From Sphaerisporangium perillae (GTDB taxonomy: Bacteria > Actinomycetota > Actinomycetes > Streptosporangiales > Streptosporangiaceae): a stretch of DNA of 64,000 nt. The notes under the pieces are model-generated. The model did no database searches and had not been told where the DNA came from. It saw only the letters and a list, made by a program, of their open reading frames with translations. The position numbers and the translations under genes are program-made. The DNA lies in the NCBI RefSeq assembly GCF_023276435.1, contig NZ_JALLPO010000016.1, positions 62,001-126,000 on the forward strand, written 5' to 3'. Every line of letters starts with the position of its first letter. Within the stretch, counting starts at the first letter, position 1. Below are positions 11,378 through 53,595 of the stretch, piece by piece.

Positions 11378-11395
11378 TTGCGAATTTATGCAATT
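11378..11395. promoter_or_regulatory. Operator-like inverted repeat upstream of the first ArsR gene
   Basis: TTGCGAATTTATGCAATT contains TTGC-N8-GCAA in an unusually AT-rich island (about 11360-11415) upstream of arsR at 11521. A related sequence occurs at 19910-19930 upstream of the second ArsR gene. The two regulators are paralogues, so the site is a good candidate for auto- and cross-regulation. The remainder of 11261-11520 shows no gene. Confidence 0.5.
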
Positions 11396-11520: not shown

Positions 11521-11865
11521 GTGCCTGTTCCGCTGTACCAGGCGAAGGCCGACTTCTTTCGCACGCTCGGGCATCCCGTACGCATCCGGGTGCTGGAACT
11601 ACTGCAGAACGGGCCGCTCCCCGTGCGTGACCTGCTGGTCGCCACAGATGTTGGGGCACCCGGTCTGTCTCAGCAGCTCGCGGTGCTGCGGCGGGCGGGT
11701 ATCGTCTCCGCCACCCGGGAGGGCTCCACCGTGGTGTACGCCCTCAGCAGCGCGGATGTCGCCGAGCTGCTGGGAGCGGCGCGCCGCATCCTGACCGACG
11801 TGATCGCCGGTCAGGGCGAGCTGCTGGCCGAGCTGCGCGAGGCGAGGCCGGAGCGGCTCACGTGA
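11521..11865 (+). CDS. ArsR-family regulator, Rv0081-like (first copy)
   Basis: Winged-helix repressor of 114 residues. The N-terminus VPVPLYQAKADFFRTLGHP and the helix-turn-helix core GLSQQLAVLRRAGIVSATREG closely follow M. tuberculosis Rv0081, a hypoxia-responsive hub regulator encoded at the head of the homologous gene cluster. It lacks the metal-binding CxC of ArsR/SmtB. GTG 11521 is chosen; an in-frame TTG lies two codons upstream. It is followed by the complex genes from 11947 and is probably co-transcribed with or controls them. Confidence 0.88.
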   Translation: MPVPLYQAKADFFRTLGHPVRIRVLELLQNGPLPVRDLLVATDVGAPGLSQQLAVLRRAGIVSATREGSTVVYALSSADVAELLGAARRILTDVIAGQGELLAELREARPERLT

Positions 11866-11946
11866 ACCGCCCATGGGCGGGCTGACGCCTGCCGTGTGTC
11901 GCCGACGTCCCATGTCTCTTTCCAGGTGTCGAGGTGTTTCATCGCC

Positions 11947-12432
11947 GTGATCGGTCTGTGGCGAAAGATCAGGAAAACCGGCCGAGTGGCCGAGCCGGCG
12001 CCCGAGCGCGCCGATGGCGAGGTCGTGCCGCGTGCCGCCGAGCTCGGCGGATCGGTGCAGATCCGGCATGTCGACGCCGGGTCGTGCAACGGCTGCGAGG
12101 TCGAGATCGCCTCGGCGTTCGGGCCGGTCTACGACGCCGAGCGGTACGGGGCGCGGCTCGTCGCCTCTCCCCGGCACGCCGACGCCCTGCTGGTGACCGG
12201 CCCGGTGACGCGCAACATGGAGGTCGCCCTGCGCCGCAGCCACGAGGCCGTGCCCGAGCCGCGCCTGGTGGTCGCCCTCGGTGACTGCGCCCGCGACTGC
12301 GGCGCGTTCGCCGGGGCGTACGGCGTGGTCGGCGCGGTCAAGGACGTCGTCCCCGTGGACGTCGAAGTGCCCGGGTGCCCGCCGCCGCCCGAGGCCATCG
12401 TCGAGGCGCTGCGCGGGCTGACCGGCCGGTGA
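11947..12432 (+). CDS. Hydrogenase small-subunit/NuoB-like iron-sulfur protein (Rv0082-like)
   Basis: Predicted electron-transfer subunit with one [4Fe-4S] cluster at the interface with the large subunit. The four ligand positions are visible: GSCNGCEVE near residues 46-51, GDCARDCG near 113 and VPGCPPPP near 142. GTG 11947 is chosen because GAGGTG lies ten bases upstream and the protein then begins like its homologues; a longer GTG start at 11896 is possible. It is the first structural gene of the complex. Its stop overlaps the next start (GTGA). Confidence 0.85.
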   Translation: MIGLWRKIRKTGRVAEPAPERADGEVVPRAAELGGSVQIRHVDAGSCNGCEVEIASAFGPVYDAERYGARLVASPRHADALLVTGPVTRNMEVALRRSHEAVPEPRLVVALGDCARDCGAFAGAYGVVGAVKDVVPVDVEVPGCPPPPEAIVEALRGLTGR

Positions 12433-14456
12433 ACCTCACCGGAACCCTTTTCGTCGCCGCGCTCGGCCTGTGCCTGGCCGCGGCGCCGGCCGCGGTCCTC
12501 ACTCCCCGCCGCGCCCGGCCGCTGCTCGCGGGAGCCGCCACCACCGCGGCGGGCCTGGCCGGGGCCGCGGCCGGCGTGACGGCGCTGTCAGGTCAGGGCT
12601 GGTCGGCCCGGCTCGACGGCGTGCTTCCCCTGGCGGGCGTGCGGCTGGACCTCGACCCGCTGGGCGCCATGTTCGTCGCCGTGACCGGCGCGGTCGCGGT
12701 CTGCGCGGCCGTCTACGGCGTCGCCTACGCCCGGCACGGCCTGGACGGCCGGGTGGCGCAGGCGACCCCGCCGCTCTTCGTCGCCTCGATGCTGCTGGTC
12801 CCCGCGGCGGCGAGCGTCAGCACTCTGCTGGTCGCCTGGGAGCTGATGGCCCTCACCTCGCTGCTGCTGGTGCTCGCCGAGCACCGCCGCCGGGCGGCGG
12901 TGGGCGAGGCGGCGCTGTGGTACGCCGTCATGACGCACCTCGGCTTCGCCGCGATCCTCGCCGGGTTGGCCGGCTTCGCGGCCCTCGCCGGCGGCGAGAC
13001 CTTCGAGCAGCTGCGCGCCGCCGGCCTGCCGCCCGGGGCGCGCGACGCGGTGTTCCTCGCGACGCTGGCGGGCTTCGCCTCCAAGGCCGGCATCGTGCCG
13101 CTGCATGTCTGGCTGGCGCGTGCCCATCCTGAGGCGCCGAGCCAGGTGTCGGCGCTGATGAGCGCGGCCATGGTCAACATGGGCGTGTACGGCATCCTGC
13201 GGGTCGGCCTGGACCTGCTGCACGGCGGCCCCGCCTGGTGGTGGCTGCTGGTGCTCGGCGCCGGCGCCCTGTCGGCGCTGTTCGGCATCCTGCAGGCGGC
13301 GGTGGCCTCCGACCTCAAACGGCTGCTCGGCCACTCCACCACCGAGAACATGGGGCTCGTGCTGATCGGCGTGGGCGCCGCCGGGTTCCTCGCCTCCGGC
13401 GGCGACTCGATGCTCGCCGCCCTGGCGCTGGCCGCCGCGCTGCTGCACGTGGTGAACCACTCCGCGTTCAAGACGCTGCTGTTCCTGGCGGCAGGCTCGG
13501 TGCTGCACGCCACCGGGACGCGCGACCTGGACGCCCTCGGCGGGTTGCGCGCCCGCATGCCCTGCACCACGGCGCTGTTCGCCGTCGGAGCCCTGGCCGC
13601 CTCCGCCCTGCCGCCGGGCAACGGGTTCGTCAGCGAGTGGCTGCTGCTCCAGAGCCTCATCCACGCCCTGCCCACCTCCGGGGTGGCGGGCGCGGTGACG
13701 ATGCCGCTGGCCGTCGGGGTGATCGCCCTGTCGGCCGGCCTGGCGATCGCCACCTTCGTGAAGGCCTTCGGCGTGGGCTTCCTGGCCCGCCCGCGCACCC
13801 CCGGAGCCGAGCGCGCGAGCGAGAGCCCGCCCGCCATGATCGGCGGGATGGCCCTGGCGGCGGCGAGCTGCGTGATCCTCGCGCTCGCGCCCGCGACCGT
13901 CCTGCCGGGCCTCTCGCGCCTGGCCGCCTCGCTGGTCCCCGGCTCGGGGCACCCTCCTGGACCCGTCCCGGTGAGCGGAGAGGTGACGCTGCGGCTGACC
14001 GGGTACGAAGGGACGATCTCGCCGCTGCTGATCGCGGTCGCGCTCGCGATCGCCGTGATCGGCCTGCTCGGCGCGGTGCGCCTGTTCGCCTCACGCAGGG
14101 CCCGGCGGGCCGCCCGGCTCTGGGACTGCGGGGCCGGGCCGATGTCGCCCCGCATGGAGTACACCGCCACGTCCTTCGCCGAGCCGCTTCAGCGAGTCTT
14201 CGATGACGTGCTGGAGCCGGAGAGCGACCTCGACGTCACCCCGACGAAGGAGTCGGCCTACCTCGTGGAGAGCGTCCGGTTCCGTGCCCGGATACCCGAC
14301 CGCATCGAGCGGCGGCTGTACGACCCGGTGCTGGCCGCCGCCGGCGCCCTCGGGCGCGCCGCGACAGGGCTGGCCAACGGCAGCGTCCACCGCTACCTCG
14401 CCTACGGCTTCTACGCCCTGACCGCTGTGCTCGTCGCCCTGGCGGTGATCTGGTGA
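12429..14456 (+). CDS. Proton-translocating NuoL/HyfB-like membrane subunit (Rv0083-like)
   Basis: Large integral membrane protein of 675 residues with about 15 or more hydrophobic helices, homologous to the antiporter-like subunits of complex I and hydrogenase 4. The conserved proton-channel region contains ASKAGIVPLHVWLARAHPEA near residues 215-237 and HVVNHSAFKTLLFL near 340. It overlaps the small-subunit gene by four bases. A 25-codon mini-ORF starts inside its stop codon and leads into hycD. Confidence 0.9.
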   Translation: MNLTGTLFVAALGLCLAAAPAAVLTPRRARPLLAGAATTAAGLAGAAAGVTALSGQGWSARLDGVLPLAGVRLDLDPLGAMFVAVTGAVAVCAAVYGVAYARHGLDGRVAQATPPLFVASMLLVPAAASVSTLLVAWELMALTSLLLVLAEHRRRAAVGEAALWYAVMTHLGFAAILAGLAGFAALAGGETFEQLRAAGLPPGARDAVFLATLAGFASKAGIVPLHVWLARAHPEAPSQVSALMSAAMVNMGVYGILRVGLDLLHGGPAWWWLLVLGAGALSALFGILQAAVASDLKRLLGHSTTENMGLVLIGVGAAGFLASGGDSMLAALALAAALLHVVNHSAFKTLLFLAAGSVLHATGTRDLDALGGLRARMPCTTALFAVGALAASALPPGNGFVSEWLLLQSLIHALPTSGVAGAVTMPLAVGVIALSAGLAIATFVKAFGVGFLARPRTPGAERASESPPAMIGGMALAAASCVILALAPATVLPGLSRLAASLVPGSGHPPGPVPVSGEVTLRLTGYEGTISPLLIAVALAIAVIGLLGAVRLFASRRARRAARLWDCGAGPMSPRMEYTATSFAEPLQRVFDDVLEPESDLDVTPTKESAYLVESVRFRARIPDRIERRLYDPVLAAAGALGRAATGLANGSVHRYLAYGFYALTAVLVALAVIW

Positions 14457-14530
14457 TCGAGATGGGGAACGTGCTCACCCTGCCCGCCCACCTCACCGTG
14501 TCCGCGTCGCTCGTCGGGGAGGGCGCATGA
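14453..14530 (+). CDS. Possible 25-residue coupling peptide between the NuoL-like and hycD genes
   Basis: GTG 14453 overlaps the TGA of the upstream gene by one codon register (GTGA). The frame then runs 25 codons to TGA 14528-14530, which overlaps the ATG of hycD (ATGA). It encodes VIEMGNVLTLPAHLTVSA and seven more residues. It fills the only gap between the two genes and would allow uninterrupted ribosome transfer. No family is recognised; it may serve only for coupling. Confidence 0.35.
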   Translation: MIEMGNVLTLPAHLTVSASLVGEGA

Positions 14531-15471
14531 CGGGCCTGATCGGGGCGGTGTCCCAGGTGGTGCTCGTGGCGGTCGGCTCACCGCTGCTGGCCGGGCTGAT
14601 GCGGCAGGTCCGCGCCCGGCTGGAGGGCCGGGCGGGGGCCGGCGTCGCCCAGCCCTGGCGCGACCTGCGCAAGCTGGCCCGCAAGGAGCCGATCACCCCG
14701 CACGGCACCGGATGGGTGTTCCGTCTCGCACCGCTGGTGCTCGCCGGCACCGTCCTGGTGGTCGCCGCGGTCGTGCCGCTGGTGACCACGCTGTCCCCGA
14801 TGGACGGCGTCGCCGACCTGTTCGCGGTGACCGCCCTGCTGGCCCTGGGGTCGGTGGCACTGGCCCTCGGCGGGCTGGACACCGGCACCGCCTTCGGCGG
14901 AATGGGCGCCAGCCGCGAGGTCACGGTGATGGCGCTGGTCGAGCCCACCATCCTGCTGTCGGTGTTCGCGCTCTCGGTGCGGGTCGGGTCGACCAATCTC
15001 GGCGCGATCGTCACCTCGGCCGTGCACGACCCGCTGGAGGTGATCTCCCCGGTCAGCCTGCTCGCGGCCGTCGCCCTGGCGGTGGTCACCATCGCCGAGA
15101 CCGGGCGCATCCCCGTGGACAACCCCTCGACGCACCTCGAACTGACGATGATCCATGAGGCGATGATCCTGGAGTACTCCGGCCCGGACCTGGCGCTCAT
15201 CGAGTGGGCGTCGGCGATGCGGCTGTCGGTGCTGCTCGGACTGCTGGCGAGCCTGTTCGCCCCCTGGGGCATCGCCACCGCGGGCGCCGGCCTGGCCGCC
15301 GTCGTCCTGGGCATGGCCGCCCTTGTGATCAAGGTCGCCGCGCTCGGAGTGCTGCTCGCCGCCGGCGAGGTGTTCATGGCCAAGCTGCGCCTGTTCCGCA
15401 TCCCGGAGCTCCTCGCCGGATCCTTCATGCTGGCGCTCCTCGCCGTCGCCGCCTCCTTCTTCCTCGCGTGA
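14527..15471 (+). CDS. hycD: NuoH/HycD-like membrane subunit (Rv0084-like)
   Basis: Membrane anchor subunit of 314 residues, homologous to NuoH of complex I and HycD/HyfC of group 4 hydrogenases. It joins the peripheral iron-sulfur arm to the membrane domain. The conserved cytoplasmic loops are present: GVAQPWRDLRKLARKEPI near residue 40 and ETGRIPVDNPSTHLELTM near residue 195. The latter is the best-conserved NuoH motif. ATG 14527 overlaps the mini-ORF stop. Confidence 0.93.
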   Translation: MTGLIGAVSQVVLVAVGSPLLAGLMRQVRARLEGRAGAGVAQPWRDLRKLARKEPITPHGTGWVFRLAPLVLAGTVLVVAAVVPLVTTLSPMDGVADLFAVTALLALGSVALALGGLDTGTAFGGMGASREVTVMALVEPTILLSVFALSVRVGSTNLGAIVTSAVHDPLEVISPVSLLAAVALAVVTIAETGRIPVDNPSTHLELTMIHEAMILEYSGPDLALIEWASAMRLSVLLGLLASLFAPWGIATAGAGLAAVVLGMAALVIKVAALGVLLAAGEVFMAKLRLFRIPELLAGSFMLALLAVAASFFLA

Positions 15472-15477
15472 GATGAC

Positions 15478-16137
15478 ATGACCGACTCGGTGTACGTACC
15501 TCTGCTCGACCTGGCCTGCGGGGCGTTCCTGCTGACGGGGGTGCTCGTGCTGTGGCGGCGCGACCTGGCCGCGATCGTGCGCCTGTTCGCCGTGCAGGGA
15601 GCCGACCTCGGCGCGCTGGTGATCGTGCTCGGACTCCACAAGGGCTCGGCCGAGCTGATGATCGCCGGTGTCGCTGTCGGCGGGCTGCGCGCGGGCCTGC
15701 TGCCCTGCCTCATGCGCCGCGCCCTGATGGCCGGAGGAGAGGGCAGGGAGACCAAACCGCTGGTCAACGTGGCCGGCTCGCTGCTGGTGGCGGCCGTGCT
15801 CGCCATGGTCGCCTACGCCGTCTCCCAGCCGCTCGTACGGCTCACCCCCACCCCGGCGACGCAGGCGGTGCCGGTCGCCCTCACCGTGCTGCTGGTCGGC
15901 TTCTTCGTCCTGGTCACCCGGCGCAGGGCGCTGTCGCAGGTGGTCGGGTTCCTGCTGATGGACAACGCCATCACCGCCACGGCCTTCCTCACGACCAGCG
16001 GGGTGCCGATGGTCGTGGAGCTCGGCGTCTCGCTCGACATCCTGCTCGCCGTTCTGGTGCTCCAGGTGCTCACCACGCGCATGCGGGCGGCGTTCGGCGG
16101 CACCGACCTGGACGAGCTGAGAGAGCTGCGCGACTGA
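15478..16137 (+). CDS. hycP: HyfE/HycP-like membrane subunit (Rv0085-like)
   Basis: Hydrophobic 219-residue protein with about six to seven helices, homologous to HyfE of hydrogenase 4. The family matches NuoK in its C-terminal half: SQVVGFLLMDNAITATAFLT near residue 155 and VELGVSLDILLAVLVLQV near 185. It is six bases downstream of hycD. Its stop overlaps the start of a 46-codon ORF that bridges to hycQ. Confidence 0.9.
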   Translation: MTDSVYVPLLDLACGAFLLTGVLVLWRRDLAAIVRLFAVQGADLGALVIVLGLHKGSAELMIAGVAVGGLRAGLLPCLMRRALMAGGEGRETKPLVNVAGSLLVAAVLAMVAYAVSQPLVRLTPTPATQAVPVALTVLLVGFFVLVTRRRALSQVVGFLLMDNAITATAFLTTSGVPMVVELGVSLDILLAVLVLQVLTTRMRAAFGGTDLDELRELRD

Positions 16138-16277
16138 TGCACGAGCGACTTGACGACCGTGTCCTTCCCGCCGCCCACACGATGCCCCGCCGACCGGCGA
16201 TCCTCAGGCGGTCGGTGTGCGGACCAGTGGTTTCCGGGCGGCCGGTGTTCGGGACGGTGGACGAGGTGACGGCATGA
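16137..16277 (+). CDS. Possible 46-residue coupling ORF between hycP and hycQ
   Basis: ATG 16137 shares a base with the hycP stop (TGATG), and the frame ends GCATGA, overlapping the hycQ ATG at 16274. The product is short and arginine-rich with no membrane segment and no recognised domain. Together with the mini-ORF at 14453 it means both internal gaps of the operon are spanned by coupled reading frames. It could be real or a by-product of selection against untranslated RNA. Confidence 0.35.
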   Translation: MHERLDDRVLPAAHTMPRRPAILRRSVCGPVVSGRPVFGTVDEVTA

Positions 16278-17824
16278 CCCTGTTGATGATCGCCCCCATC
16301 CTGCTGCACGTGCTCGCCGCGTGCGGCTACGCCGCTCTCGGGTGGCGGCCCGCCACCGCCTGGCTGGGCGCCGTGGCCTCCGCGGGGACGTTATGCGCGG
16401 CCATCGCGCTGGCCGTGGCCACCACCGATCATCCCCGTACGGCCATCGGCGGCCTGCTGCGCGCCGACGCGCTGAGCGCGTTCATGCTGATCGTGATCGG
16501 CGTGGTGGCCCTGCTGGCGATGCTCGCGAGCCCCGGCTACCTCGCCGCCGAGGTCGCCGCCGGGCATACCGGGGAGCGCGCCGCCCGCCGCTACGGCATC
16601 CTGACCCAGGCCTTCGTGGCCGCCATGGCGCTCGCGGTCCTCGCGGCGAGCCTCGGGGTGCTCTGGGTGGCGGTGGAGGCGACCACGATCCTCACCGCGT
16701 TCCTGGTGGGGCACCGCCGCACCCGGCAGGCCGTCGAGGCCGCCTGGAAGTACGTCGTGATCTGCTCGGTCGGCATCGCCTTGGCCCTGCTCGGCATCGT
16801 CCTCACCAACTACGCCGCCGTCCACGCCCGCGTGCCCTCCGCAGGCGTGCTCGACTGGGCCGTGCTCGCCGGCCACGCCGCCGACCTCGACCCCGGGGTG
16901 ATGCGCATCGCCGTCGCCCTGCTGGTCCTCGGGTTCGGCACCAAGGCCGGTCTGGCGCCGATGCACGCCTGGTTGCCCGACGCCCACGGCCAGGCCCCGG
17001 CGCCGGTGTCCGCGCTCATGTCGGGGGTGCTGCTGTCGGTCGCCTTCTACGCCGTCCTGCGGGTGAAGGTCATCGCCGACATCGCCCTCGGCGCCGGGTT
17101 CGCGCGCACGCTGCTGGTCATCGCAGCCCTCGCGTCCCTGGCCGTCTCGGCGGCCCTGCTGCTGGCACAGCGCGACTACAAACGGATGCTCGCCTACTCG
17201 AGCATCGAGCACATGGGACTCGTGGCCCTCGGCGCCGCCATCGGCACCCGCCTCGCCATGGCGGCCGTCCTGCTGCACGTGCTCGGGCACGGCCTCGGCA
17301 AGTCGGTGCTGTTCCTGGCCTCCGGGCACATCCACCAGGCCTACGGCAGCAGCAAGATCGCCGCGGTCGGCGGGCTGACCGTGCGGGCTCCGGTGCTCGC
17401 CGGCGCCTTCGGCCTCGGCCTGCTGGCGCTGCTCGGCCTGCCGCCGTTCAGCCTGTTCGCCAGCGAGCTCGGCATCGTCCGCGCGGGCTTCTCCGCCGGT
17501 CTCGGCTGGGCGGTGGCGGCGGCGCTCGTGCTGGTTCTGCTCATCGGCGCGTCCATGCTCTCGGGCTGGCGCAGCATGCTGCTCGGCACCCCCTCGCCCG
17601 AGGGAGCCGCGCCCTTGCCCGCGGTCGTCACCAACGCAGCCGGCGGCGCGGCGCCACCCGGCCAGGCCACCCCCTCACCCGGCGGCACGTCGCCACGGCT
17701 CACGTGGACCGCCGCCGTCCCGCTGGTCGCCGGACTGCTCGCCTGCGCCGTCCTCGGCGTCACGACCGGACCGCTGCGCCCGCTGCTGGAGGCCGCCGCG
17801 ACCATGGCAGGAGCCACGCCTTGA
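16274..17824 (+). CDS. hycQ: NuoN/HyfF-like proton-translocating membrane subunit (Rv0086-like)
   Basis: Antiporter-like membrane subunit of 516 residues with about 14 helices. The proton-channel signature GTKAGLAPMHAWLPDAHGQA is near residues 220-240, with a second conserved stretch KRMLAYSSIEHMGLV near 305. It starts at ATG 16274, inside the stop of the bridging ORF, and ends in TTGA overlap with hycE. A proline/glycine-rich cytoplasmic loop (about residues 437-475) is longer than in HyfF. Confidence 0.92.
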   Translation: MTLLMIAPILLHVLAACGYAALGWRPATAWLGAVASAGTLCAAIALAVATTDHPRTAIGGLLRADALSAFMLIVIGVVALLAMLASPGYLAAEVAAGHTGERAARRYGILTQAFVAAMALAVLAASLGVLWVAVEATTILTAFLVGHRRTRQAVEAAWKYVVICSVGIALALLGIVLTNYAAVHARVPSAGVLDWAVLAGHAADLDPGVMRIAVALLVLGFGTKAGLAPMHAWLPDAHGQAPAPVSALMSGVLLSVAFYAVLRVKVIADIALGAGFARTLLVIAALASLAVSAALLLAQRDYKRMLAYSSIEHMGLVALGAAIGTRLAMAAVLLHVLGHGLGKSVLFLASGHIHQAYGSSKIAAVGGLTVRAPVLAGAFGLGLLALLGLPPFSLFASELGIVRAGFSAGLGWAVAAALVLVLLIGASMLSGWRSMLLGTPSPEGAAPLPAVVTNAAGGAAPPGQATPSPGGTSPRLTWTAAVPLVAGLLACAVLGVTTGPLRPLLEAAATMAGATP

Positions 17825-19305
17825 CCGATCGACTCATCGCCCACGTCACTCCCGACGAGCTGGCCGGCCGGGCCGGACGGCTGTTCGCGGACGGGTACCG
17901 GCTCGCGCTGGTGGCCGCGCACGAGGACCCCGGCGCCCTGCGGGTGGTGTACCTGTTCACCGCGGGCGCGCCGGACCGGCGTACCGAGCTGCACGTGCGG
18001 CTCGACCCGAACGAGCCGGTGATCCCGAGCCTGGCCGCGCTGTCCTTCCCGGCGGGCAGGTTCGAGCGGGAGATGCGCGACCTGTACGGGGTGGTGCCCG
18101 CGGGCCACCCTCTGCCCCGTCGCTTGGTCCGCCACCACCACTGGCCGCGCGGCTGGTATCCGATGCGCGCCGACGCCGGACCGCCTCCCGCCTTCGGCGA
18201 CCCCGAAGGCCCCTACCCCTTCGTCACCGTGGAAGGGCCGGGCGTGTACGAGATCCCGGTCGGGCCGGTGCACGCGGGCCTCATCGAGCCCGGCCATTTC
18301 CGGTTCTCGGTGGTGGGGGAGACGATCCTGAAGCTCAAGGCGAGGCTGTGGTTCGTCCACAAGGGCATCGAGAAGCTGTTCATCGGGCGGGACCCGGGCG
18401 AGGGGCTGCCGCTCGCCGAGCGGGTCAGCGGTGACACCTCGGTCGGCCACGCCCTCGCGTACTGCCTGGCCGTGGAGGAGGCGACCGGGTGCGTCGTCGC
18501 CGCGGAGGCGCAGCGCATGCGGGCCGTCCTGCTGGAGCTGGAACGCCTGTACAACCACGTCACCGACCTCGGCGCCCTGTGCAACGACGTGGCCCACGGC
18601 ATCCTGAACGCCCAGAGCGGGCGCGTGCGCGAGCAACTGCTCCGGATCAACGCCGAGGTCACCGGTCACCGGTTGCTACGCGGCGGGGTGACGCTGGGTG
18701 GCGCGGTGCTGCGCGCCCGGCCCGACCCGGGCAGGCTGCGGGCCATCGCCGCCGACGTCGCCGAGATCGCCGAACTCGCCCTCGGGCACACCGTCGTCGC
18801 CGACCGGTTCGCCGGCACCGCCGTGCTGACCCCCGGGGCCGCCCGGGACCTCGGCGCGCTCGGGTACGTCGCCCGTGCCAGCGGGGTCGCCGTCGACGCC
18901 CGCCGCGACCACCCGTTCACCGACCTTGGCCCGTTCACCGTGGTCGCCGGGGAGACCGGGGACGTGATGGCCCGGTTCCAGGTCCGCGCGCGCGAGATCG
19001 CCGCGTCCGTCGAGGTGATCGCGTACCTGCTCGACGGGCTGCCGCCGGGCGGGGTGTGCGGCCGGCCTCCCTGCACCACGCCGGGCGGGGCCACCTCCGG
19101 CGTCGGCATCGTCGAAGGCTGGCGCGGGACCATCGCGCACCGGGTGGAGCTGGCCCCCGACGGCACGCTGACCCGGGTCAAGATCGCGGACCCCTCGTTC
19201 TTCAACTGGCCGGCCCTGCCCGTCGCGCTCAGCGGCGCGATCGTGCCCGACTTCCCCCTGGTGAACAAGAGCTTCAACCTGTCCTACGCGGGCAACGACC
19301 TCTGA
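17821..19305 (+). CDS. hycE: HycE/NuoD-like large subunit lacking the NiFe cysteines (Rv0087-like)
   Basis: Peripheral large subunit of 494 residues: an N-terminal NuoC-like domain (FPAGRFEREMRDLYGVVP near residue 80) fused to a NuoD/hydrogenase large-subunit domain. In NiFe hydrogenases two CxxC motifs bind the metal. Here the first position reads RVSGDTSVGHALAY (about residues 200-213) and the second reads ADPSFFNWPALP (about 456-467), with no cysteine in either. The complex therefore should not evolve hydrogen and belongs with the energy-converting-hydrogenase-related (Ehr) class. TTG 17821 overlaps the hycQ stop. Confidence 0.9.
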   Translation: MTDRLIAHVTPDELAGRAGRLFADGYRLALVAAHEDPGALRVVYLFTAGAPDRRTELHVRLDPNEPVIPSLAALSFPAGRFEREMRDLYGVVPAGHPLPRRLVRHHHWPRGWYPMRADAGPPPAFGDPEGPYPFVTVEGPGVYEIPVGPVHAGLIEPGHFRFSVVGETILKLKARLWFVHKGIEKLFIGRDPGEGLPLAERVSGDTSVGHALAYCLAVEEATGCVVAAEAQRMRAVLLELERLYNHVTDLGALCNDVAHGILNAQSGRVREQLLRINAEVTGHRLLRGGVTLGGAVLRARPDPGRLRAIAADVAEIAELALGHTVVADRFAGTAVLTPGAARDLGALGYVARASGVAVDARRDHPFTDLGPFTVVAGETGDVMARFQVRAREIAASVEVIAYLLDGLPPGGVCGRPPCTTPGGATSGVGIVEGWRGTIAHRVELAPDGTLTRVKIADPSFFNWPALPVALSGAIVPDFPLVNKSFNLSYAGNDL

Positions 19306-19314
19306 CCGGCCCGC

Positions 19315-19398
19315 GCGTTCCGCGGTGTCGGCCCCCGCGCCTGCCTTCCGCGGTGGCGGGCGCGCCCCCCGCGTTCTGCGATGGCGGGACGGTGGCTC
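19315..19398. repeat. Three degenerate tandem copies of a 28-base unit
   Basis: Units begin at 19315, 19343 and 19371 with exact 28-base spacing, each starting GCGTTCCGCGGTGGCGG or a close variant. They lie between the convergent ends of hycE and the second ArsR gene. The third copy overlaps the end of that gene. No terminator hairpin of conventional form was identified here. Confidence 0.55.
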
Positions 19399-19753
19399 AG
19401 CCGCGGTGCGACGTCGGTGCGGTGGACTCCGAGGCTCGCAGGTCCTGCAGGATCTCGGCCTGCCCGGACAGCACGTCGGCGAGGATCTGGCGCGCGACCT
19501 TGAGCAGCTCGGCGACCAGGGGGCTGGTCAGCGAGTAGTGGACCGTCGCGCCTTCCTTGCGGGAGACCACGAGGTTGGCCCGTCGCAGCACGGCGAGCTG
19601 CTGGGACAGGTGCGCGGCCTCGATGCCCACCTCGGGCAGCATCTCGGCGACCGTGTGATCGCGCTCGCTCAGCAGCTCGAGGACGCGGATGCGAGCGGGA
19701 TGCCCCAGCGTCTTGAAGAACTCCGCCTTCAACTGGTAGAGCGGCGTGCTCAC
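19397..19753 (-). CDS. ArsR-family regulator, Rv0081-like (second copy)
   Basis: Winged-helix repressor of 118 residues starting at GTG 19753. The segment PLYQLKAEFFKTLGHPAR and the recognition region AAHLSQQLAVLRRANLVV are closer to M. tuberculosis Rv0081 than the first copy at 11521 is. It is convergent with hycE at the far end of the cluster, so the complex genes are bracketed by paralogous regulators. The upstream AT-rich region has an operator-like site at 19910-19930. Confidence 0.88.
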   Translation of the reverse strand: MSTPLYQLKAEFFKTLGHPARIRVLELLSERDHTVAEMLPEVGIEAAHLSQQLAVLRRANLVVSRKEGATVHYSLTSPLVAELLKVARQILADVLSGQAEILQDLRASESTAPTSHRG

Positions 19754-19909: not shown

Positions 19910-19930
19910 GCAATTTACAAGTTTCGCAAT
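19910..19930. promoter_or_regulatory. Operator-like sequence upstream of the second ArsR gene
   Basis: GCAATTTACAAGTTTCGCAA reads TTGCGAAACTTGTAAATTGC on the minus strand. It shares TTGCGAA and a following AA-TT half with 11378-11395. TATAGT lies at 19894-19899 on the minus strand, in a suitable place for a -10 of the regulator gene. The segment stands out as AT-rich between GC-rich genes. Confidence 0.45.
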
Positions 19931-21050: not shown

Positions 21051-22373
21051 TCAGCGGGCGGTCGGCTGGAGGTCGGCGACGTGGCGGATCAGGTCGCCGA
21101 CGTGCACGACGCCCATGCAGCGGCCGACCTCGTCGATCACGACCAGGTCGTCGTACACACGGGCAGCGTCCTTGCCCGCCACCTGCATGGCCGCGATGGC
21201 CGGGGTGGTCTTCGGTACGACGCGCGGCGGGTCGGCGAGGCGGTGCGCCGGCTTCTTGGCGTGCAGGGCGTGCCCGTAGGGCCCGGCGATGGAGAGCAGG
21301 AAGCGGCTCCGCTCCACGCTGCCCCTCGGACGCTGGTACTCGTCCACCAGGATGACGCTGGTGATCGAGGGCTCCGTGCCGAGGGCCTCCACCACCTCCT
21401 CGGCCGTGGCCTGCATGTCGAGGGTGATCGCCGGGATGAGGAACTCCTGCACCCGCGGCCCGAGGTCCACCATCGACGGCTCGGGTTCGGCGACCGGCAC
21501 CGGCAGCGGGACGTGCACCCGGCCGTGCGAGGGACGCCAGTCGAGCGGGGCCAGCAGCGGCCCCTGCGCGAGCCTGACGCCCCAGGTGCGCAGCGCGGTG
21601 AGCTGCGTCTCGTCGCGCACCTGCGGGGCCAGCACGTGGATGCCCATTCCCTTGGCCATGCGGGCGACCGCCTCGCCGAGCGCGTTGCGCCGCACGTCCC
21701 GGGGAATGCGCTCCATCAGCTCTGGAGAGAGCACCACCGTGTACGGCGAGGCGTCGGCGATCAGGTCGAGCGGGACGTGGGAGGTGCCGACGCCGCCGAG
21801 GGCGACAAGGTAGCCGATGGTCCGCAGACCGTCCATGCCGGTCAGCAGGGCCCGGCGGTCCTCCGCGGGGAAGTCGCCCGCGATCACGAGGATCACCTCG
21901 CGAGGGCGGCGCTTGGTCGCCCGCATCGCCTCGTGCAGGGGTGCCAGGGCGGCGGAGCCCAGGATCACGGCTCCGGAGGGCACGGTCAGCAGCAGGGGCA
22001 GCAACGCCTCCTCGCGGGCGGCGGCGTACGCGGCGGCCACCGTGGGGGAGATGTCGCGGGACATCCCGAGAGGGGTGACCTCGGTCGTCGCCTCGACGGC
22101 GATCACCCCGCCGGTGTCGAGATCGACGACCGGGAGGAAGGTCGCGACGGCACCAGCCGCTCCTGGACGTCCGGGCGCTCCAGCACGTCCGGGCGGCTCG
22201 GGTGCGCCAGAAAAGCCGGTGGAGCGGTGTGCGCCGGGAAGTCCGGGCGAACTCGGCGTGCCCGGGAATCCAGGGGAGGTCGGAGGGGCCATCGAGGCTC
22301 CCAGGGAGGCGGGGTGGGGGGTGGCGGTCGCCAGGGACGCGGCGGCCGGGGAAGGGGTTCTGAGGACCGTCAC
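21051..22373 (-). CDS. Degenerate EAL-domain protein with C-terminal CBS pair and collagen-like segment
   Basis: About 440 residues. A low-complexity N-terminal stretch (residues about 28-72) contains repeated G-x-y triplets such as GFPGTP, GLPGAH and GAPGRPGAAGA. An EAL-fold domain follows, but the catalytic EAL reads AVEATTEV and the usual acidic metal ligands are missing, so cyclic-di-GMP hydrolysis is unlikely. Residues about 320-440 form two CBS motifs, which bind adenine nucleotides in other proteins. GTG 22373 is a tentative start without a clear ribosome-binding site. The likely role is a nucleotide-sensing regulatory protein. Confidence 0.75.
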   Translation of the reverse strand: MTVLRTPSPAAASLATATPHPASLGASMAPPTSPGFPGTPSSPGLPGAHRSTGFSGAPEPPGRAGAPGRPGAAGAVATFLPVVDLDTGGVIAVEATTEVTPLGMSRDISPTVAAAYAAAREEALLPLLLTVPSGAVILGSAALAPLHEAMRATKRRPREVILVIAGDFPAEDRRALLTGMDGLRTIGYLVALGGVGTSHVPLDLIADASPYTVVLSPELMERIPRDVRRNALGEAVARMAKGMGIHVLAPQVRDETQLTALRTWGVRLAQGPLLAPLDWRPSHGRVHVPLPVPVAEPEPSMVDLGPRVQEFLIPAITLDMQATAEEVVEALGTEPSITSVILVDEYQRPRGSVERSRFLLSIAGPYGHALHAKKPAHRLADPPRVVPKTTPAIAAMQVAGKDAARVYDDLVVIDEVGRCMGVVHVGDLIRHVADLQPTAR

Positions 22374-22636
22374 ACATGGATTGTGCTGGGGGTTCGTGGG
22401 CCGGAGGGGACCTGACGGAGGGAATTCACTGTTATTTCCCCATCCGTTGCATGGAAGGATTCCTTTACGGTGAGTCGGGAAGAATGTCACGCCCCGTAAC
22501 GACCATTTCGGCCCCACCACCCCAAACCACCGCCTTGCCGCCGATCCGGCCTGGACTCTCACGTGGGTGTGGCCGAGCGGTGCACGCCGTAGGGATGCGG
22601 TCGCTTCCTCTATGCGGGCTGCTAGTGTCGCGCCTC

Positions 22637-23332
22637 ATGGCGGGACGACCGGCGGCGGGTGGGGGGCGATGGGTGTCGGTCGCGCCCGGACGTCTGGAGA
22701 CCTGGTCACGCGGGTTCGCCGAGCGGCACGGGGGAGCGGAGAACGTTCTCTCCGGCGACGTCGTACGCCTCCAGGGCCGTGACGGCGCCGTGGCCGAGTT
22801 GCACGTTCCGTTCCCCCCGCTGGGCGGGGCCCGTGCGGACGCCGATGCCGTAGCCGCGGCCGAAGGTGACGATCTCCTGCATGACCTGGTGGAGCACGCG
22901 AGAGCCGAGCGCGTGGTCGGAGTGCTTCTCGTCCGCCTCGGTGGTCACGCCGCCGGGGTGTTCGAAGGGGAGCGGCTGATCGCCTCCAAGGTGGGCTCGC
23001 GCCTGGTGCATGGGCGCAGCGCGGCCGGTGGCTGGTCGCAGCACCGCTTCGCCCGGCGCCGGGAGAAGCAGGCGGCGGAGGCGTCCCAGGCGGCGGCCGA
23101 GGTCGCCGTGCGGGTGCTGGTGCCGAAGGTGGACTCGCTCGAAGCCGTGGTCCTCGGCGGAGATCGCCGCGCGGTCGACGCCCTGCGTACCGACCGGCGG
23201 CTCGCACCCATCTTCGCGCTCGAGACCGGCCCCTTCCTGGACGTGCCCGACCCCCGGCTGGCCGTCCTGCAGGACACCCCCCGCACCTTCCGCGCCGTCC
23301 GAATCCGCCTCCTGGATCCCCCCACCACCTAA
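22637..23332 (+). CDS. acVLRF1-family peptidyl-tRNA hydrolase/release factor
   Basis: Actinobacterial Vms1/eRF1-like protein of 231 residues, predicted to cleave nascent chains from tRNA on stalled large ribosomal subunits. The catalytic loop GGWSQHRFARRREKQA is near residues 131-146; its glutamine corresponds to that of the eRF1 GGQ motif. The start ATG 22637 (MAGRPAAGGGRWVSVAPGRL) fits family N-termini and has little upstream Shine-Dalgarno sequence, so it may be leaderless. It stands between divergent and unrelated genes. Confidence 0.85.
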   Translation: MAGRPAAGGGRWVSVAPGRLETWSRGFAERHGGAENVLSGDVVRLQGRDGAVAELHVPFPPLGGARADADAVAAAEGDDLLHDLVEHARAERVVGVLLVRLGGHAAGVFEGERLIASKVGSRLVHGRSAAGGWSQHRFARRREKQAAEASQAAAEVAVRVLVPKVDSLEAVVLGGDRRAVDALRTDRRLAPIFALETGPFLDVPDPRLAVLQDTPRTFRAVRIRLLDPPTT

Positions 23333-26680: not shown

Positions 26681-26896
26681 GTGGCCGAGACTCTGAAGAA
26701 GGGCACCCGGGTGACCGGGGCCGACCGTGAAAAACTGGCCGCCGATCTCAAGAAGCGGTACGCCGCGGGTGAGAGCATCCGTGCGCTCGCCGCTTCGACC
26801 GGCAGGTCATATGGGTTCATCCACCGCATCCTCAGCGAGTCCGGCGTGACTCTGCGCGGGCGCGGCGGAGCCACCCGAGGCAAGTCGAAGCGCTAG
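26681..26896 (+). CDS. Small helix-turn-helix protein
   Basis: Seventy-one-residue basic protein beginning at GTG 26681 with GGAGG six bases upstream. The central RYAAGESIRALAASTGRSYG forms a resolvase-like helix-turn-helix, and the C-terminus is Arg/Gly/Lys-rich (RGRGGATRGKSKR). Proteins of this size and sequence are widespread in actinobacteria, often directly after the ABC-F gene as here. It is likely a nucleoid-associated or regulatory DNA-binding protein; the function is not established. Confidence 0.8.
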   Translation: MAETLKKGTRVTGADREKLAADLKKRYAAGESIRALAASTGRSYGFIHRILSESGVTLRGRGGATRGKSKR

Positions 26897-27037
26897 GCAG
26901 GCCGCCTCGGAAACGCGCGACCGCAGCCGCTCGTCCCGTTCAGCCGATACCCGTCCCGCCCGCGCCGGTAGAATCTGATTCTGGAACCCTACTGGGTTCG
27001 GGCGTGACGGGACAGCGACGTACGGACGGAGCGAACG

Positions 27038-27952
27038 ATGCCGGAAGCGACGCTTGGGGGGAGTGCGGCGGACATCTCGGCGAGCAAGGATGCCGACCCG
27101 GGCACGGATGGAGCGCTGACGCGCGCCGGAGGGGTGCGCGGCGAGGCTGACAGAGCCCCTGACAGCGAAGAGCTCGCGGAGATCGGTCTGCGCTTCGAGG
27201 TGGACGGCGAGATCGCGACGGTCACACTGGACCGGCCGGAGAGGCGGAACGCCCAGACGTTCGCCACCTGGTCGGCTCTCGCTCGGATCGGCGGAACACT
27301 GCCGGAGCAGGTGCGCGTCGTCGTGGTCCGAGGCGAGGGGCCGTCCTTCTCAGCGGGCATCGACCTGCGATTGTTCACTCCGGAAGGGGTGCAGGGGCAG
27401 GGGTCGTTCACGTCCGCGGCGGCGCTCGACGGCGAGACGCTCGAAGAGCGCATCAAGGAATTCCAGAAGGGCTTCCTGTGGCTGCGCCGCCCGGACATCG
27501 TGTCGATCGCGGCAGTGCACGGGCATGCGATCGGGGCGGGCTTCCAGCTGGCTCTGGCCTGCGACCTGCGGGTAATCGCGGACGACACGAAGTTCTGCAT
27601 GAAGGAACCCGCGCTTGGGCTGGTCCCTGACCTGACCGGCACCAAGCCGCTGGTCGACCTCGTCGGCCTGTCCAGGGCCGTGGAGATCTGCCTGACGGCA
27701 CGCTTCGTCGAGGCGGAGGAGGCGTTGAGGCTCGGCCTGGCCGAGCAGGTCGTTCCCAGAGAGGAGCTGGGAGCGGCGGCGCGCGCGCTCGCCTCGTCCC
27801 TGCTGGCGACCGACAGGGGCGCGGCGACGGCGACCAAGCGGCTGCTCCAGGGGGCCGTGGGCCGGACGCTGGAGGAGCAGTCCGCGGCCGAGCGCGCCGA
27901 GCAGGCGGTGCGCATCAGGACGCTCTTCGGGGGTGCCGGCCGGACCGGGTGA
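27038..27952 (+). CDS. Enoyl-CoA hydratase/isomerase family protein
   Basis: Crotonase-fold enzyme of 304 residues for acyl-CoA metabolism. The oxyanion-hole segments are FSAGIDLRLF near residue 105 and HGHAIGAGFQLALACDLRV near 160. The usual catalytic glutamates are not obvious: the second site reads KEPALGLVPDLTGTKPL, as in isomerase-like members. The N-terminal 45 residues precede the domain and look disordered. ATG 27038 has GGAG upstream. Confidence 0.88.
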   Translation: MPEATLGGSAADISASKDADPGTDGALTRAGGVRGEADRAPDSEELAEIGLRFEVDGEIATVTLDRPERRNAQTFATWSALARIGGTLPEQVRVVVVRGEGPSFSAGIDLRLFTPEGVQGQGSFTSAAALDGETLEERIKEFQKGFLWLRRPDIVSIAAVHGHAIGAGFQLALACDLRVIADDTKFCMKEPALGLVPDLTGTKPLVDLVGLSRAVEICLTARFVEAEEALRLGLAEQVVPREELGAAARALASSLLATDRGAATATKRLLQGAVGRTLEEQSAAERAEQAVRIRTLFGGAGRTG

Positions 27953-32923: not shown

Positions 32924-34738
32924 CTAGCGGAGCAGGTCGGTGTAGCGCGGGGTGTGGCCGGGGCGCGACAGCGTGTGCGCGGTGTGGATCAGGGGGACGT
33001 GGCTGAACGCCTGCGGGAAGTTGCCCACCAGGCGCTCGTAGCGGGGGTCGTACTCTTCCGACAGCAGGCCCACGTCGTTGCGCAGGGCCAGCAGCTTCTC
33101 GAACAGCTCGACGGCCTCCTCGTGCCTGCCGGCCATGGCCCGCGCCTCGGCGAGCCAGAAGCTGCACGCCAGGAACGCCCCCTCGCCGCCGGCCAGGCCG
33201 TCCACGGCGTTCTGCTGGGCCAGGGGGTAGCGGAGCACGAAGCCGTCTGACATCAGCTCGCGCTCGATCGCGTCGATGGTGCCGGTGACCCGGGGATCGG
33301 TGGGCGGGAGAAAGCCGGTCTGCGGGATCAGCAGCAGGGCGGCGTCCAGCTCGCGCGAGCCGTAGGACTGGGTGAAGGTGTTCCGCGCCGGGTCGTATCC
33401 CTTGTGCATGATCTCGGCGTGGATGCGCTCGCGCAGCGCGCGCCAGCGCTGGAGCGGGCCGGTCTGGCCGAACTTCTCGACCTGCCGGATCACGCGGTCG
33501 GTGGCCACCCAGGCCATCACCTTGGAGTGGACGAAGTGCCGGCGAGGCCCGCGGACCTCCCACAGGCCCTCGTCGGGCTCGTCCCAGTGGGACTCCAGGA
33601 AGTCCATCAGCGACCGCTGGATCGCCCAGGTGCGCGAGATGCTCGCCAGCCCGGACTCCTGCGACAGGTAGAGGCAGCTCATCACCTCGCCGTAGACGTC
33701 GAGCTGGAGCTGGTTGACGGCAGCGTTGCCGATGCGCACCGGCCCGGAGTCCTCGTAGCCCTCCAGCCAGGGCAGCTCCATCTCGGGCAGGCGCCGCTCG
33801 CCGGCCACGCCGTACATGATCTGCAGGTCCTGCGGGCGGCCGGCGATGGCGCGCAGCAGCCACTCGCGCCAGTCGCGGGCCTCGTCGATGTACCCGGCGC
33901 CGATGAGCGCGTCGAGCGTCATCGTGGCATCGCGCAGCCAGCAGTAGCGGTAGTCCCAGTTGCGCACGCCGCCGATGTCCTCGGGCAGGGAGGTGGTGGC
34001 CGCCGCGACGATCCCGCCGGTGGGGGAGTAGGTCAGCGCCTTGAGGGTGATCAGCGAGCGGACGACGGCCTCGCGCCACCGGTCCTCGGTGTGCAGGACG
34101 CAGCGGGAGACCCACTCCTTCCAGATGGCCTCGGTCTCCACCAGCTCGGCCAGCGGGTCGATCTCGTCGGGCTTCGGGGAGTGGGAGGGGTGCCAGGTGA
34201 ACACGAACGCCAGCCGGTCGCCCGCCGACATGCGGAACGTCGCCTTGTGGGCGTAGTCGCCGCCCTGCAGCGGCACCGGGGAGCGCAGCCAGGCGGAGTC
34301 GGGGCCGCCGATGGCCTGGAGCAGCCCGTCATTGCGGCGCACCCAGGGCACGATGCGGCCGTAGTCGAAGCGGATGCGGATGTGGGTGCCCATCTCGACG
34401 CTGCCGGCGAGGCACTCGACGACCCGGACCAGGTCGGGGTTGGCCTGCCGGGGCGGCATGAAGTCGGTGACGCGCACCGTGCCGCCCTCGGTGTCCCATT
34501 CGGTCTCCAGGATGAGGGTGTCCTCGCGGTAGCGGCGCCGGGTGCTCAGCGGGTGGTCGCCGCTCGCCGGGCCGATCCACCAGTGGCCGTTGCGCTCGTC
34601 TCCGAGCAGGGACGCGAAGCAGGCCGGGGAGTCGAACCGGGGCAGGCACAGCCAGTCGATCGATCCGTTCCGTCCGACGAGGGCGGCCGACTGCATGTCC
34701 CCGATGATGGCGTAGTCCTCGATCCGCATGGTCGTCAC
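32924..34738 (-). CDS. Glycoside hydrolase family 15 protein (trehalase/glucoamylase-like)
   Basis: Intracellular inverting glycosidase of 604 residues. The N-terminus RIEDYAIIGDMQSAALVGRN is typical of the GH15 group that includes mycobacterial trehalase. Catalytic-domain segments include NWDYRYCWLRDATMTLDAL near residue 262 and GEGAFLACSFWLAEARAM near 525. The most likely substrate is trehalose or short alpha-glucans; sequence alone does not decide. GTG 34738 is listed; ATG 34729 is three codons inside and equally plausible. Confidence 0.88.
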   Translation of the reverse strand: MTTMRIEDYAIIGDMQSAALVGRNGSIDWLCLPRFDSPACFASLLGDERNGHWWIGPASGDHPLSTRRRYREDTLILETEWDTEGGTVRVTDFMPPRQANPDLVRVVECLAGSVEMGTHIRIRFDYGRIVPWVRRNDGLLQAIGGPDSAWLRSPVPLQGGDYAHKATFRMSAGDRLAFVFTWHPSHSPKPDEIDPLAELVETEAIWKEWVSRCVLHTEDRWREAVVRSLITLKALTYSPTGGIVAAATTSLPEDIGGVRNWDYRYCWLRDATMTLDALIGAGYIDEARDWREWLLRAIAGRPQDLQIMYGVAGERRLPEMELPWLEGYEDSGPVRIGNAAVNQLQLDVYGEVMSCLYLSQESGLASISRTWAIQRSLMDFLESHWDEPDEGLWEVRGPRRHFVHSKVMAWVATDRVIRQVEKFGQTGPLQRWRALRERIHAEIMHKGYDPARNTFTQSYGSRELDAALLLIPQTGFLPPTDPRVTGTIDAIERELMSDGFVLRYPLAQQNAVDGLAGGEGAFLACSFWLAEARAMAGRHEEAVELFEKLLALRNDVGLLSEEYDPRYERLVGNFPQAFSHVPLIHTAHTLSRPGHTPRYTDLLR

Positions 34739-34783
34739 GCTAGTAGACGTGGCGGGCTCCGGTGCATGCGCGCGGGAGGCGGA

Positions 34784-35389
34784 TCAGTCGCGGAGACGCA
34801 TCAGCGGCATGAAGTACTGCGTGAGCGGCCCGATCGCGAGCGCGAAGACGATGGTGCCGACGCCGACCGTCCCGCCGAGCACCCATCCGGTGGCGAGGAC
34901 GGTCAGCTCGATCAGCGCGCGGGCCGTGCGGATCGACAGGCCGAGCCGGTGCAGCCCGGTCATCAGGCCGTCGCGGGGTCCGGGGCCAAGTCCGGCGCCG
35001 ATGTACAGGCCGGTGGCCGCGGCGACGCACACCACGGCCACCAGCAGGTACGCCCAGCGCAGGGCGAGGTCGCTTGGGGTGGGCAGCAGCCAGAGCGTGA
35101 GGTCGGCGAACAGCCCGACGAAGAGGATGTTGCTCAGCGTGCCGATCCCGGGGCGCTGCCTGAGCGGGATCCAGAAGACCATCACGACGGCGCCCACCAG
35201 GATGATCCACGTCCCGATCGACCATCCGGTGCGGACGGCGAGCCCCTGGTGGAAGACGTCCCAGGGATCGTTGCCGAGCCGGGACTCGATCTGGAGGCCG
35301 ATTCCGGCGCCGTACAGCGCGAGGCCGGCGTACAGGCGCAGCAACCGGTTGGGCAACGATCCGAGGCGGGGGAGGGAGAGTTCGCTCAT
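34784..35389 (-). CDS. YczE-family membrane protein
   Basis: Integral membrane protein of 201 residues with five to six helices. It contains the family-typical IESRLGNDPWDVFHQGL near residue 33 and GAGLGPGPRDGLMTGL near 125. The molecular role is unknown; family members are nearly always encoded beside a MocR regulator (YczR), as here at 35454. The 64-base divergent spacer carries two inverted repeats, consistent with control by that regulator. Confidence 0.88.
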   Translation of the reverse strand: MSELSLPRLGSLPNRLLRLYAGLALYGAGIGLQIESRLGNDPWDVFHQGLAVRTGWSIGTWIILVGAVVMVFWIPLRQRPGIGTLSNILFVGLFADLTLWLLPTPSDLALRWAYLLVAVVCVAAATGLYIGAGLGPGPRDGLMTGLHRLGLSIRTARALIELTVLATGWVLGGTVGVGTIVFALAIGPLTQYFMPLMRLRD

Positions 35390-35398
35390 AATGGAAGT

Positions 35399-35453
35399 AA
35401 TGGTCTGATGCCATTGGCTTGCTGTTAAAGGGCCAATCAGAGAAAGTGGCCTT
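35399..35453. promoter_or_regulatory. YczR-type operator region in the divergent spacer
   Basis: AATGG-N7-CCATT (35399-35415) and AAGGGCCA-N10-TGGCCTT (35428-35453) are two inverted repeats between the yczE-like and MocR genes, the second ending at the MocR start codon. MocR regulators bind paired repeats in divergent promoters, so this is the probable regulatory site for both genes. Confidence 0.6.
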
Positions 35454-53464: not shown

Positions 53465-53595
53465 CCGAACTCCTTAAGTGTGGAGACCCCTGCCTTCGGG
53501 CGGGGGAGGGAACGCGGCGCGGTGTGGAACGGTGTCGGATGGTGTGGAGTCGAATCGGTGTTCGTATCCGGTTGATCGTGTCTAGGGTGCTGGCT

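Follow-up and report, generated by a model that had tools for sequence, protein, structure and literature searches.

Gene organization of the locus and its relatives

We analyzed a 64,000-nucleotide stretch of the Sphaerisporangium perillae genome (contig NZ_JALLPO010000016.1, positions 62,001 to 126,000; hereafter, the window), which has a GC content of 71% and belongs to a genome of 9.3 Mb. At 11521-19753, the window carries two ArsR-family regulator genes and only six structural genes (Table 1), which, judging from their sequences, almost certainly encode an energy-converting-hydrogenase-related (Ehr) complex, a member of an already named and widespread family. The open reading frame (ORF) calls and the Pfam and NCBIfam matches bore out the gene set, coordinates, order and strand given in a preliminary description of this DNA, and the end coordinate, 19753, marked the start codon of the second, minus-strand ArsR gene. 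Except for NuoB, the NCBIfam matches of the operon all scored under their equivalog cut-offs. The operon had also been described as tight; this was mostly correct, with 4-base overlaps at the EhrS/HyfB and HyfF/EhrL junctions, but it did not apply to the gaps of 70 nucleotides between HyfB and HyfC and 136 nucleotides between HyfE and HyfF. The operon contained no NADH input module (NuoEFG). The flanks of the locus encoded a RibD-like protein, a TetR regulator, an EAL/CBS protein, a release-factor-like protein and a P450. Rfam searches at gathering thresholds gave no match in the window, and the window contained no tRNA genes.

Table 1. Features of the Ehr locus, with the matches on which each assignment is based.
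Feature	Coordinates	Strand	Evidence
Operator-like palindrome (predicted) TTGCGAATTTATGCAA upstream of the first ArsR gene	11378..11393	.	1 mismatch to TTGCNAANNTTNGCAA; leave-one-out p = 0.0002
ArsR-family regulator 1 (no Cys, Rv0081-like)	11521..11865	+	PF01022 36.8 bits; best PDB match Rv0081 6jmi E 2.9e-26, next 3.9e-12
EhrS, NuoB/HycG-like small subunit, four [4Fe-4S] cysteines of CxxC type	11947..12432, GTG start	+	PF01058 106.5 bits; MbhJ 6cfw_J E 7.1e-35; HycG 7z0s_G E 4.2e-33
HyfB/NuoL-like antiporter-type subunit	12429..14456	+	PF00361 153.6 bits; NF005086 hydrogenase 4 subunit B 567.6 bits (cut-off 667); conserved charged residues
HyfC/HycD/NuoH-like subunit, conserved glutamates	14527..15471	+	PF00146 141.8 bits
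HyfE-like membrane subunit	15478..16137	+	NF008556 hydrogenase 4 membrane subunit 81.3 bits (cut-off 136); no Pfam match
HyfF/NuoN-like antiporter-type subunit	16274..17824 (start 16274 inferred; longest ORF from 16217)	+	PF00361 170.1 bits; NF005044 hydrogenase 4 subunit F 350.2 bits (cut-off 610)
EhrL, large subunit resembling NuoCD/HycE, with S203, T206, S488 and G491 in place of the NiFe ligands	17821..19305, TTG start	+	PF00346 91.1, PF00329 55.1, PF00374 30.9 bits; HycE 7z0s_E E 1.8e-62
ArsR-family regulator 2, closer to Rv0081, facing the operon	19397..19753	-	best PDB match Rv0081 6jmi E 4.8e-36
Second, weaker operator-like site (predicted) upstream of the second ArsR gene	19914..19929	.	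2 mismatches; leave-one-out p = 0.0023 for the region

A scan of named genomes yielded at least 580 confirmed Ehr pattern matches (possibly two per gene), and 80 loci from many phyla were retained. The closest of these belonged to Nonomuraea and two Mycobacterium species, with 75-77% identity. Ehr was present in 44 of the 297 family genomes and in 2 of the 11 from the genus; among 394 genomes of the class, 34 had it at E <= 1e-60. In a same-genus relative (G780), the complex adjoins the same response regulator, histidine kinase and ABC (RR-HK-ABC) genes as in the window, which suggests that the two copies are of common descent. Insertion into an empty site was set aside, since the downstream P450 gene was not syntenic in five same-genus genomes and no empty site was thus defined.

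According to a published table (PMC6901956), the Rv0081-Rv0087 'hyc' locus of M. tuberculosis contains the same kinds of genes in the same order. Sequences were compared via the six other mycobacterial loci among the 80 (L050, L060, L062, L063, L067 and L081; titles naming Mycobacterium, Mycolicibacter or Mycobacteriaceae), all of which had the order ArsR-S-B-C-E-F-L. With Rv0081 as the best match of both regulators, the earlier assignment to an Ehr complex in the Rv0081-Rv0087 arrangement was confirmed, with the difference that the window has a second ArsR gene facing the operon. The rarity that had been suggested was not sustained: Ehr complexes lacking the nickel-iron (NiFe) ligands have been published for several phyla (PMC6349859, PMC10284858), and repeated transfer of the hyc locus within Actinobacteria was described in 2009 (PMC3087520). 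The Nitrospira Ehr is reported to lie near group 4 hydrogenases and to lack the CxxC motifs, like that of the window (PMC10284858). The Nitrospira loci in our alignment share the SGD and NKSFN signature with the window, and those with all genes on the contig had the order B-C-E-F-L-S instead of ArsR-S-B-C-E-F-L. The likeness to the Geobacter Ehr is taken from its published description (PMC7894505).

Among solved structures, E. coli formate hydrogenlyase (HycE/HycG, 7z0s) provided the closest large subunit, which has the same fused NuoC-NuoD domains; however, HycE has the Ni-Fe cysteines, and HycB, HycF and FdhF had no counterpart in the window operon. The best solved match of EhrS was the small subunit of Pyrococcus Mbh (6cfw), which retains its Ni-Fe site, and the EhrL profile matched 6u8y_L of Pyrococcus MBS (E 2.5e-46). 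The core subunits of respiratory complex I (NuoB/CD/H/L/N) are also related. The conserved charged membrane residues of the window complex presumably correspond to those of complex I, from which it differs in lacking the NADH module and in two sets of residues described below.

The former Ni-Fe site and the iron-sulfur cysteines

Alignment of EhrL with HycE placed the first motif, RVSGDTSVGH, opposite RVCGICGFAH, so that the first CxxC was lost as previously described. DPSFFNWPAL (EhrL residues 457-466) had been named as the second ligand motif; this was ruled out, since it aligned with AATYANWPTL of HycE, and the true ligand site was C-terminal, within NKSFNLSYAGNDL, where FNLSYAGNDL aligned with LDPCYSCTDR. 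The conclusion that the NiFe site is missing stands, because the cysteines of the C-terminal motif are absent as well: S203, T206, S488 and G491 occupy the four ligand columns, and none of the five EhrL cysteines lies at a ligand column. In addition, no hypA-F-type maturation family was found among the Pfam-scanned genes of the window, a scan that did not cover some ORFs (e.g., 26681-27915 and 34728-35408). A separate NiFe hydrogenase is encoded elsewhere in the genome, on contig C66. The length of the C-terminal tail was tried as a sign of lost maturation and was uninformative, as the single NiFe-type member matched also stops at the motif.

The EhrL alignment comprised 112 rows: 16 with all four Ni-Fe cysteines, 9 set aside (two NuoD and seven divergent Ehr-like rows, L013-L017, L029 and L030), and 87 others. 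These 87 Ehr rows were chosen by having no cysteine at column 203, and they also had none at columns 206, 488 and 491. Column 203 held S in 82 rows, A in 4 and T in 1; column 206 held T in 61, S in 23, E in 2 and N in 1; column 488 held S in 84, with 3 gaps; and column 491 held G in 85, with 2 gaps. D205 was present in all 87 Ehr rows, in none of the 16 NiFe rows and in none of the seven divergent Ehr-like rows. N486 was found in 83/87 Ehr rows (three gaps, one S), and the NiFe rows have D or E there. The result was a near-invariant polar signature at the former Ni site, SGD[T/S] plus NKSFNxSYxGND. The distribution of D205 (87/87 versus 0/16) therefore indicated that the Ni-Fe site was replaced and not merely decayed. 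In a later tree set, one member (L167) retained a single cysteine at 203.

We take the quinone head-group ligands of complex I to be H38 and Y87 of Nqo4 (NuoD). The corresponding columns held I155 and G204 in 87/87 Ehr rows; in NuoD of the same genome (L001), they hold H and Y. G204 is shared with NiFe hydrogenases, as is I155 with the nearest NiFe relatives; because NiFe hydrogenases also lack the His/Tyr pair, its absence is inherited. The alignments thus suggest that EhrL has neither a Ni-Fe site nor a quinone site of the complex I type and that a third, well-conserved pocket is present instead. The constancy of this predicted pocket speaks for a function and against decay.

In the small subunit, the four iron-sulfur (Fe-S) cysteines noted earlier were confirmed by alignment as C47, C50, C114 and C144 (numbered from the GTG at 11947), with the CxxC spacing of hydrogenases and not the tandem CC of NuoB. 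The EhrS alignment contained 66 rows, namely the window and 65 of the 80 loci, the other 15 having given no EhrS match. All four cysteines were present in 58/66 rows, including the window. The eight deviating proteins came from Microbacteriaceae (L074, L077, L082 and L085), Patescibacteria (L110 and L121), a Thermoleophilia metagenome-assembled genome (L126) and Rokubacteria (L093, a single unconfirmed change). After 20 loci were added, four cysteines were kept in 72/86 taxa and at least one position was changed in 14/86. In the topology of a FastTree tree, read without its support values, 11 of these 14 taxa fell into two separate clades, a T/D-C-D-D type (5 taxa) and a Microbacteriaceae type (6 taxa). 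Two deep outgroup taxa (L162 and L178) also lacked the fourth cysteine, the third position of L178 being possibly misaligned.

In the first type (L110, L121, L126, L160/L180, L161/L183, L181, L182, L184 and L185), three of the four cysteines were replaced by T or D, D and D, with the motifs GS[TD]NACEQE, GDDAI and PGDPP, across Patescibacteria and genomes of the window's phylum. This form was found in 6/19 genomes of one order of that phylum (G282 and G239 of this set are also L160 and L161) and in three further loci. It is not a sequencing error, because the same residues occurred in all six genomes. In the Microbacteriaceae type (L074, L077, L082, L085, L175 and L176), the fourth cysteine was replaced by S or N, and L082 had three changes (ACAS). 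The EhrL signature was retained in L110, L121 and L126. In the Daviesbacteria locus (L110:2926-20705), ATP synthase genes flank the Ehr operon, epsilon at one end and beta, gamma and alpha at the opposite end, with further genes intervening. Our literature search, with most subscription papers outside its reach, turned up neither the SGD/NKSFN signature nor any description of an Ehr small subunit that had lost its Fe-S cysteines. The elements that appear to be new include the polar signature at the former Ni site and the loss of Fe-S cysteines in two Ehr clades, neither of which is that of the window.

We take the ion-channel role of the conserved charged residues in HyfB, HyfC and HyfF to be carried over from complex I and Mrp. 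In HyfB (numbered from 12375), E156 and K237 were conserved in 62/62 rows, and H362 and K366 in 65/65. The HyfC glutamates E139, E191, E205, E211, E216 and E281 were conserved in 66/66 rows. HyfF (numbered from 16217) kept E154 in 72/72 rows, K243 in 73/73, and H358 and K362 in 75/75. In L110, L121 and L126, which have lost Fe-S cysteines, all the listed HyfB residues were kept, as were all but one in HyfC; HyfE E181 was Q in all three. In HyfF, L121 and L126 differed at two or three residues, with H332 and E417 changed in L121. Among four Microbacteriaceae members checked, HyfB H251 differed in 3/4 and HyfF H354 in 4/4.

Regulators and neighboring genes

Both ArsR proteins of the window lack cysteine, and Rv0081 was by a wide margin the best solved-structure match of each. 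Rv0081 is described as dimeric, as repressing its own promoter via an inverted repeat and as having no defined metal site, and more than 700 sites are reported for it by chromatin immunoprecipitation sequencing (PMC6177252). The M. tuberculosis hyc locus is reported to be under hypoxic regulation (PMC3087520, PMC6901956, PMC6177252). A palindrome, TTGCNAANNTTNGCAA, was common to the upstream regions of many Ehr-linked ArsR genes. The palindrome TTGCnAAnnTTnGCAA gave leave-one-out p < 0.01 in 24 of 46 such regions, those of both window ArsR genes included; the motif was seeded from 9 of the 46, and one of the 46 was the window's ArsR-EhrS gap, which has no palindrome. Within the window, two sites with at most two mismatches were found against 0.12 expected, and 0/100 shuffles reached two. 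The palindrome upstream of each ArsR gene is a candidate operator.

The site at 11378..11393 was the only one with at most one mismatch in the 9.3-Mb genome; this count shows nothing alone, because a reversed-pattern control found two per strand. It was also the only genome match of model R1 (E 1.5), for which 150 of 224 candidates were scored and the site itself was in the training set. A wide ArsR regulon in this genome was not supported, as no further site with at most one mismatch or R1 match was found, although the control shows that this count has no power, and 74/224 R1 candidates were unscored. Among 13 further loci scanned, good sites occurred in L170 and L171 (two apiece) and in L163 (one), a weak site occurred in L174, and the other nine had none. 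Palindrome-free loci with an ArsR gene were L164, L165, L172, L173, L175, L176 and L177, and neither a palindrome nor an ArsR gene was detected in the same-genus L168. In L177 (G304), an ArsR gene lies immediately upstream of the genes for a sister enzyme that retains all four Ni-Fe cysteines; ArsR control may therefore be older than the loss of the Ni-Fe site.

The neighbors of Ehr genes varied. In actinobacterial loci, Usp and CBS-BON genes were found near Ehr in L099, and Hsp20 and CBS protein genes in L097, but each stress- or dormancy-type query was found in just 1 to 5 of 81 sequences. SulP-type transporter genes adjoin Ehr in two actinobacteria, each beside an ArsR gene (L097:3779-5922 and L099:11482-13508), and in Methylococcales (L114:336-4158); SulP was rejected as a general partner because it occurred in only 5/81 sequences. 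Phosphoenolpyruvate carboxykinase (PEPCK) was found in 4/81. A conserved family of approximately 250-340 aa is encoded downstream of EhrL in L052, L053, L056, L057 and L062, beside PEPCK in three of them, and three members tested had no Pfam match.

Proposed role and alternative readings

The electron donor and acceptor had been stated as not known, and this was upheld. The reading that we favor, on balanced odds of being right or wrong, is that of a hypoxia-linked, redox-driven ion-translocating complex fed at EhrS by a separately encoded donor. A redox-driven pump is favored because the Fe-S cysteines are kept in 72/86 taxa, including the window. The link to hypoxia draws on the Rv0081-like regulators, on the Usp, Hsp20 and CBS-domain genes found near Ehr in a few actinobacterial loci and on the published regulation of the M. 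tuberculosis locus. Under this model, low oxygen would cause the ArsR repressors to release their operators, and the complex would be made. Electrons from a soluble donor encoded elsewhere would enter the EhrS cluster and pass to a small polar acceptor in a pocket between EhrL and EhrS (S203, D205, T206, N486, S488 and Y489). This transfer would drive the movement of protons (or sodium) via the HyfC glutamates and the two antiporter-type subunits. An EhrS-ferredoxin fusion with an N-terminal ferredoxin-like domain occurs in other lineages (L164:5540-6349, a clear Pfam match, and L162:9760-10524, a weak one); it is a possible electron entry point, and lineages with it plausibly use EhrS for electron flow.

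Several observations weigh against a redox-driven pump. Most pump residues persist in relatives that no longer have all the Fe-S cysteines, which suggests that the complex may not depend on electron flow through EhrS. The proposed EhrL pocket is one read from alignments, and the absence of the quinone pair, being inherited, says little about the present acceptor. According to Pfam, the operon has no ferredoxin-like or flavin subunit, and a search around the 80 loci (44/80 exceed 19 kb; a positive control worked) revealed no molybdopterin oxidoreductase. The same-genus relative G780 carries the complex with no ArsR gene or operator-like site detected, and no hypoxia gene was recognized adjoining the window's own copy.

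The first alternative, which we consider possible but doubtful, is a non-redox role, whether as an Mrp-like antiporter or valve for ions or as some other ion-coupled machine; EhrL and EhrS would then act as a gate or bind a non-redox ligand. The changed EhrS cysteines in 14/86 taxa, 11 of them in the two clades of the FastTree topology, are consistent with such a role, as is the conservation of the T/D-C-D-D form in six genomes and three further loci. L110, L121 and L126 retain the EhrL signature together with all the HyfB and nearly all the HyfC residues, and in L110, ATP synthase genes are found on both sides of the operon, with several others intervening. However, the window and most other taxa keep four cysteines, and the Microbacteriaceae clade has mostly a single change to S or N, with which a cluster may still be held. 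The T/D-C-D-D site might itself bind a cluster or another metal, ferredoxin domains are fused to EhrS elsewhere, and residues are changed at HyfE E181 in L110, L121 and L126 and at HyfF H332 and E417 in L121. A stronger form of this idea, which we regard as improbable, holds that Ehr complexes are non-redox at heart: the new pocket (SGD[T/S] plus NKSFNxSYxGND) would serve an ion-coupled non-redox task, and the last Fe-S cluster would be dispensable, having been lost separately in Microbacteriaceae and in the Patescibacteria/actinobacterial clade with the charged chain nearly whole. The cluster of the window would then perhaps be a sensor or a structural relic.

A formate:quinone oxidoreductase is also unlikely. 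In this scheme, which has been proposed for other Ehr complexes (PMC6349859), a cytoplasmic formate dehydrogenase (FDH) would deliver electrons to menaquinone by way of EhrS, with concomitant proton pumping. The Geobacter Ehr subunits are reported to be more abundant on formate than in hydrogen conditions (PMC7894505). The host genome encodes two candidate enzymes, an Fdh-alpha-like protein that scores 643.4 bits against a cut-off of 666 and an FdhF/YdeP protein that scores 952 bits against one of 582, and the window encodes a formamidase (FmdA/AmdA family, 580 bits) at 61661-62914, approximately 42 kb from the Ehr genes, with an adjoining zinc-ribbon protein (to 63232); this formate-yielding enzyme is a possible formate source. 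We compared 297 family genomes at E <= 1e-180 by Fisher tests that ignore ancestry. Either FDH type was found in 39/44 Ehr-positive versus 181/253 Ehr-negative genomes (p = 0.016), but Fdh-alpha alone was not associated (13/44 versus 78/253, p = 1.0) and was thus rejected as an obligate partner, and FdhF/YdeP was weakly so (32/44 versus 143/253, p = 0.047). Five of the 44 Ehr-positive genomes had neither type, no FDH-type gene was detected near the 80 loci, no linked FdhF gene was found among the scanned window genes, and the quinone ligands of complex I are absent from EhrL. These results indicated that neither FDH is an obligate partner at this threshold and that a weak link with formate remains.

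Finally, annotations often call the locus a hydrogenase or formate hydrogenlyase. Its overall similarity to HycE/HycG/Hyf speaks for this reading, as does the formate hydrogenlyase that He in 2011 reportedly predicted for the M. tuberculosis locus, but it is very improbable: formate hydrogenlyase is ruled out by the missing Ni-Fe ligands (S, T, S and G at columns where 16/112 rows have four cysteines), no hyp genes were found among the scanned window genes, and the operon has no HycB/HycF ferredoxin-like homologue.

We found no reaction assigned to Ehr complexes, although they are widespread and include the hypoxia-regulated M. tuberculosis locus. The pocket signature, the absent quinone ligands and the natural members without Fe-S cysteines now make their role testable. 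If the cluster-less members work, they would represent a complex I relative without redox chemistry, which bears on the evolution of coupling in complex I.

Other genes of the window were also noted. Just past the locus, 21051-22562 encodes an EAL-domain protein with a weak CBS match; its ORF overlaps that of a VLRF1-type release factor (22376-23332), so one start is probably misplaced. Downstream of the P450 gene, 24851-26566 encodes an ABC-F-like protein that matches the ABC-transporter ATPase family twice and has an ABC_tran_Xtn linker. A TnpB-like protein of the OrfB/IS605 type, bearing a Cas12f1-like TNB domain, is encoded at 53524-54726, and an NhaA-type Na+/H+ antiporter fused to a DsbA/thioredoxin-like domain at 55696-57585.

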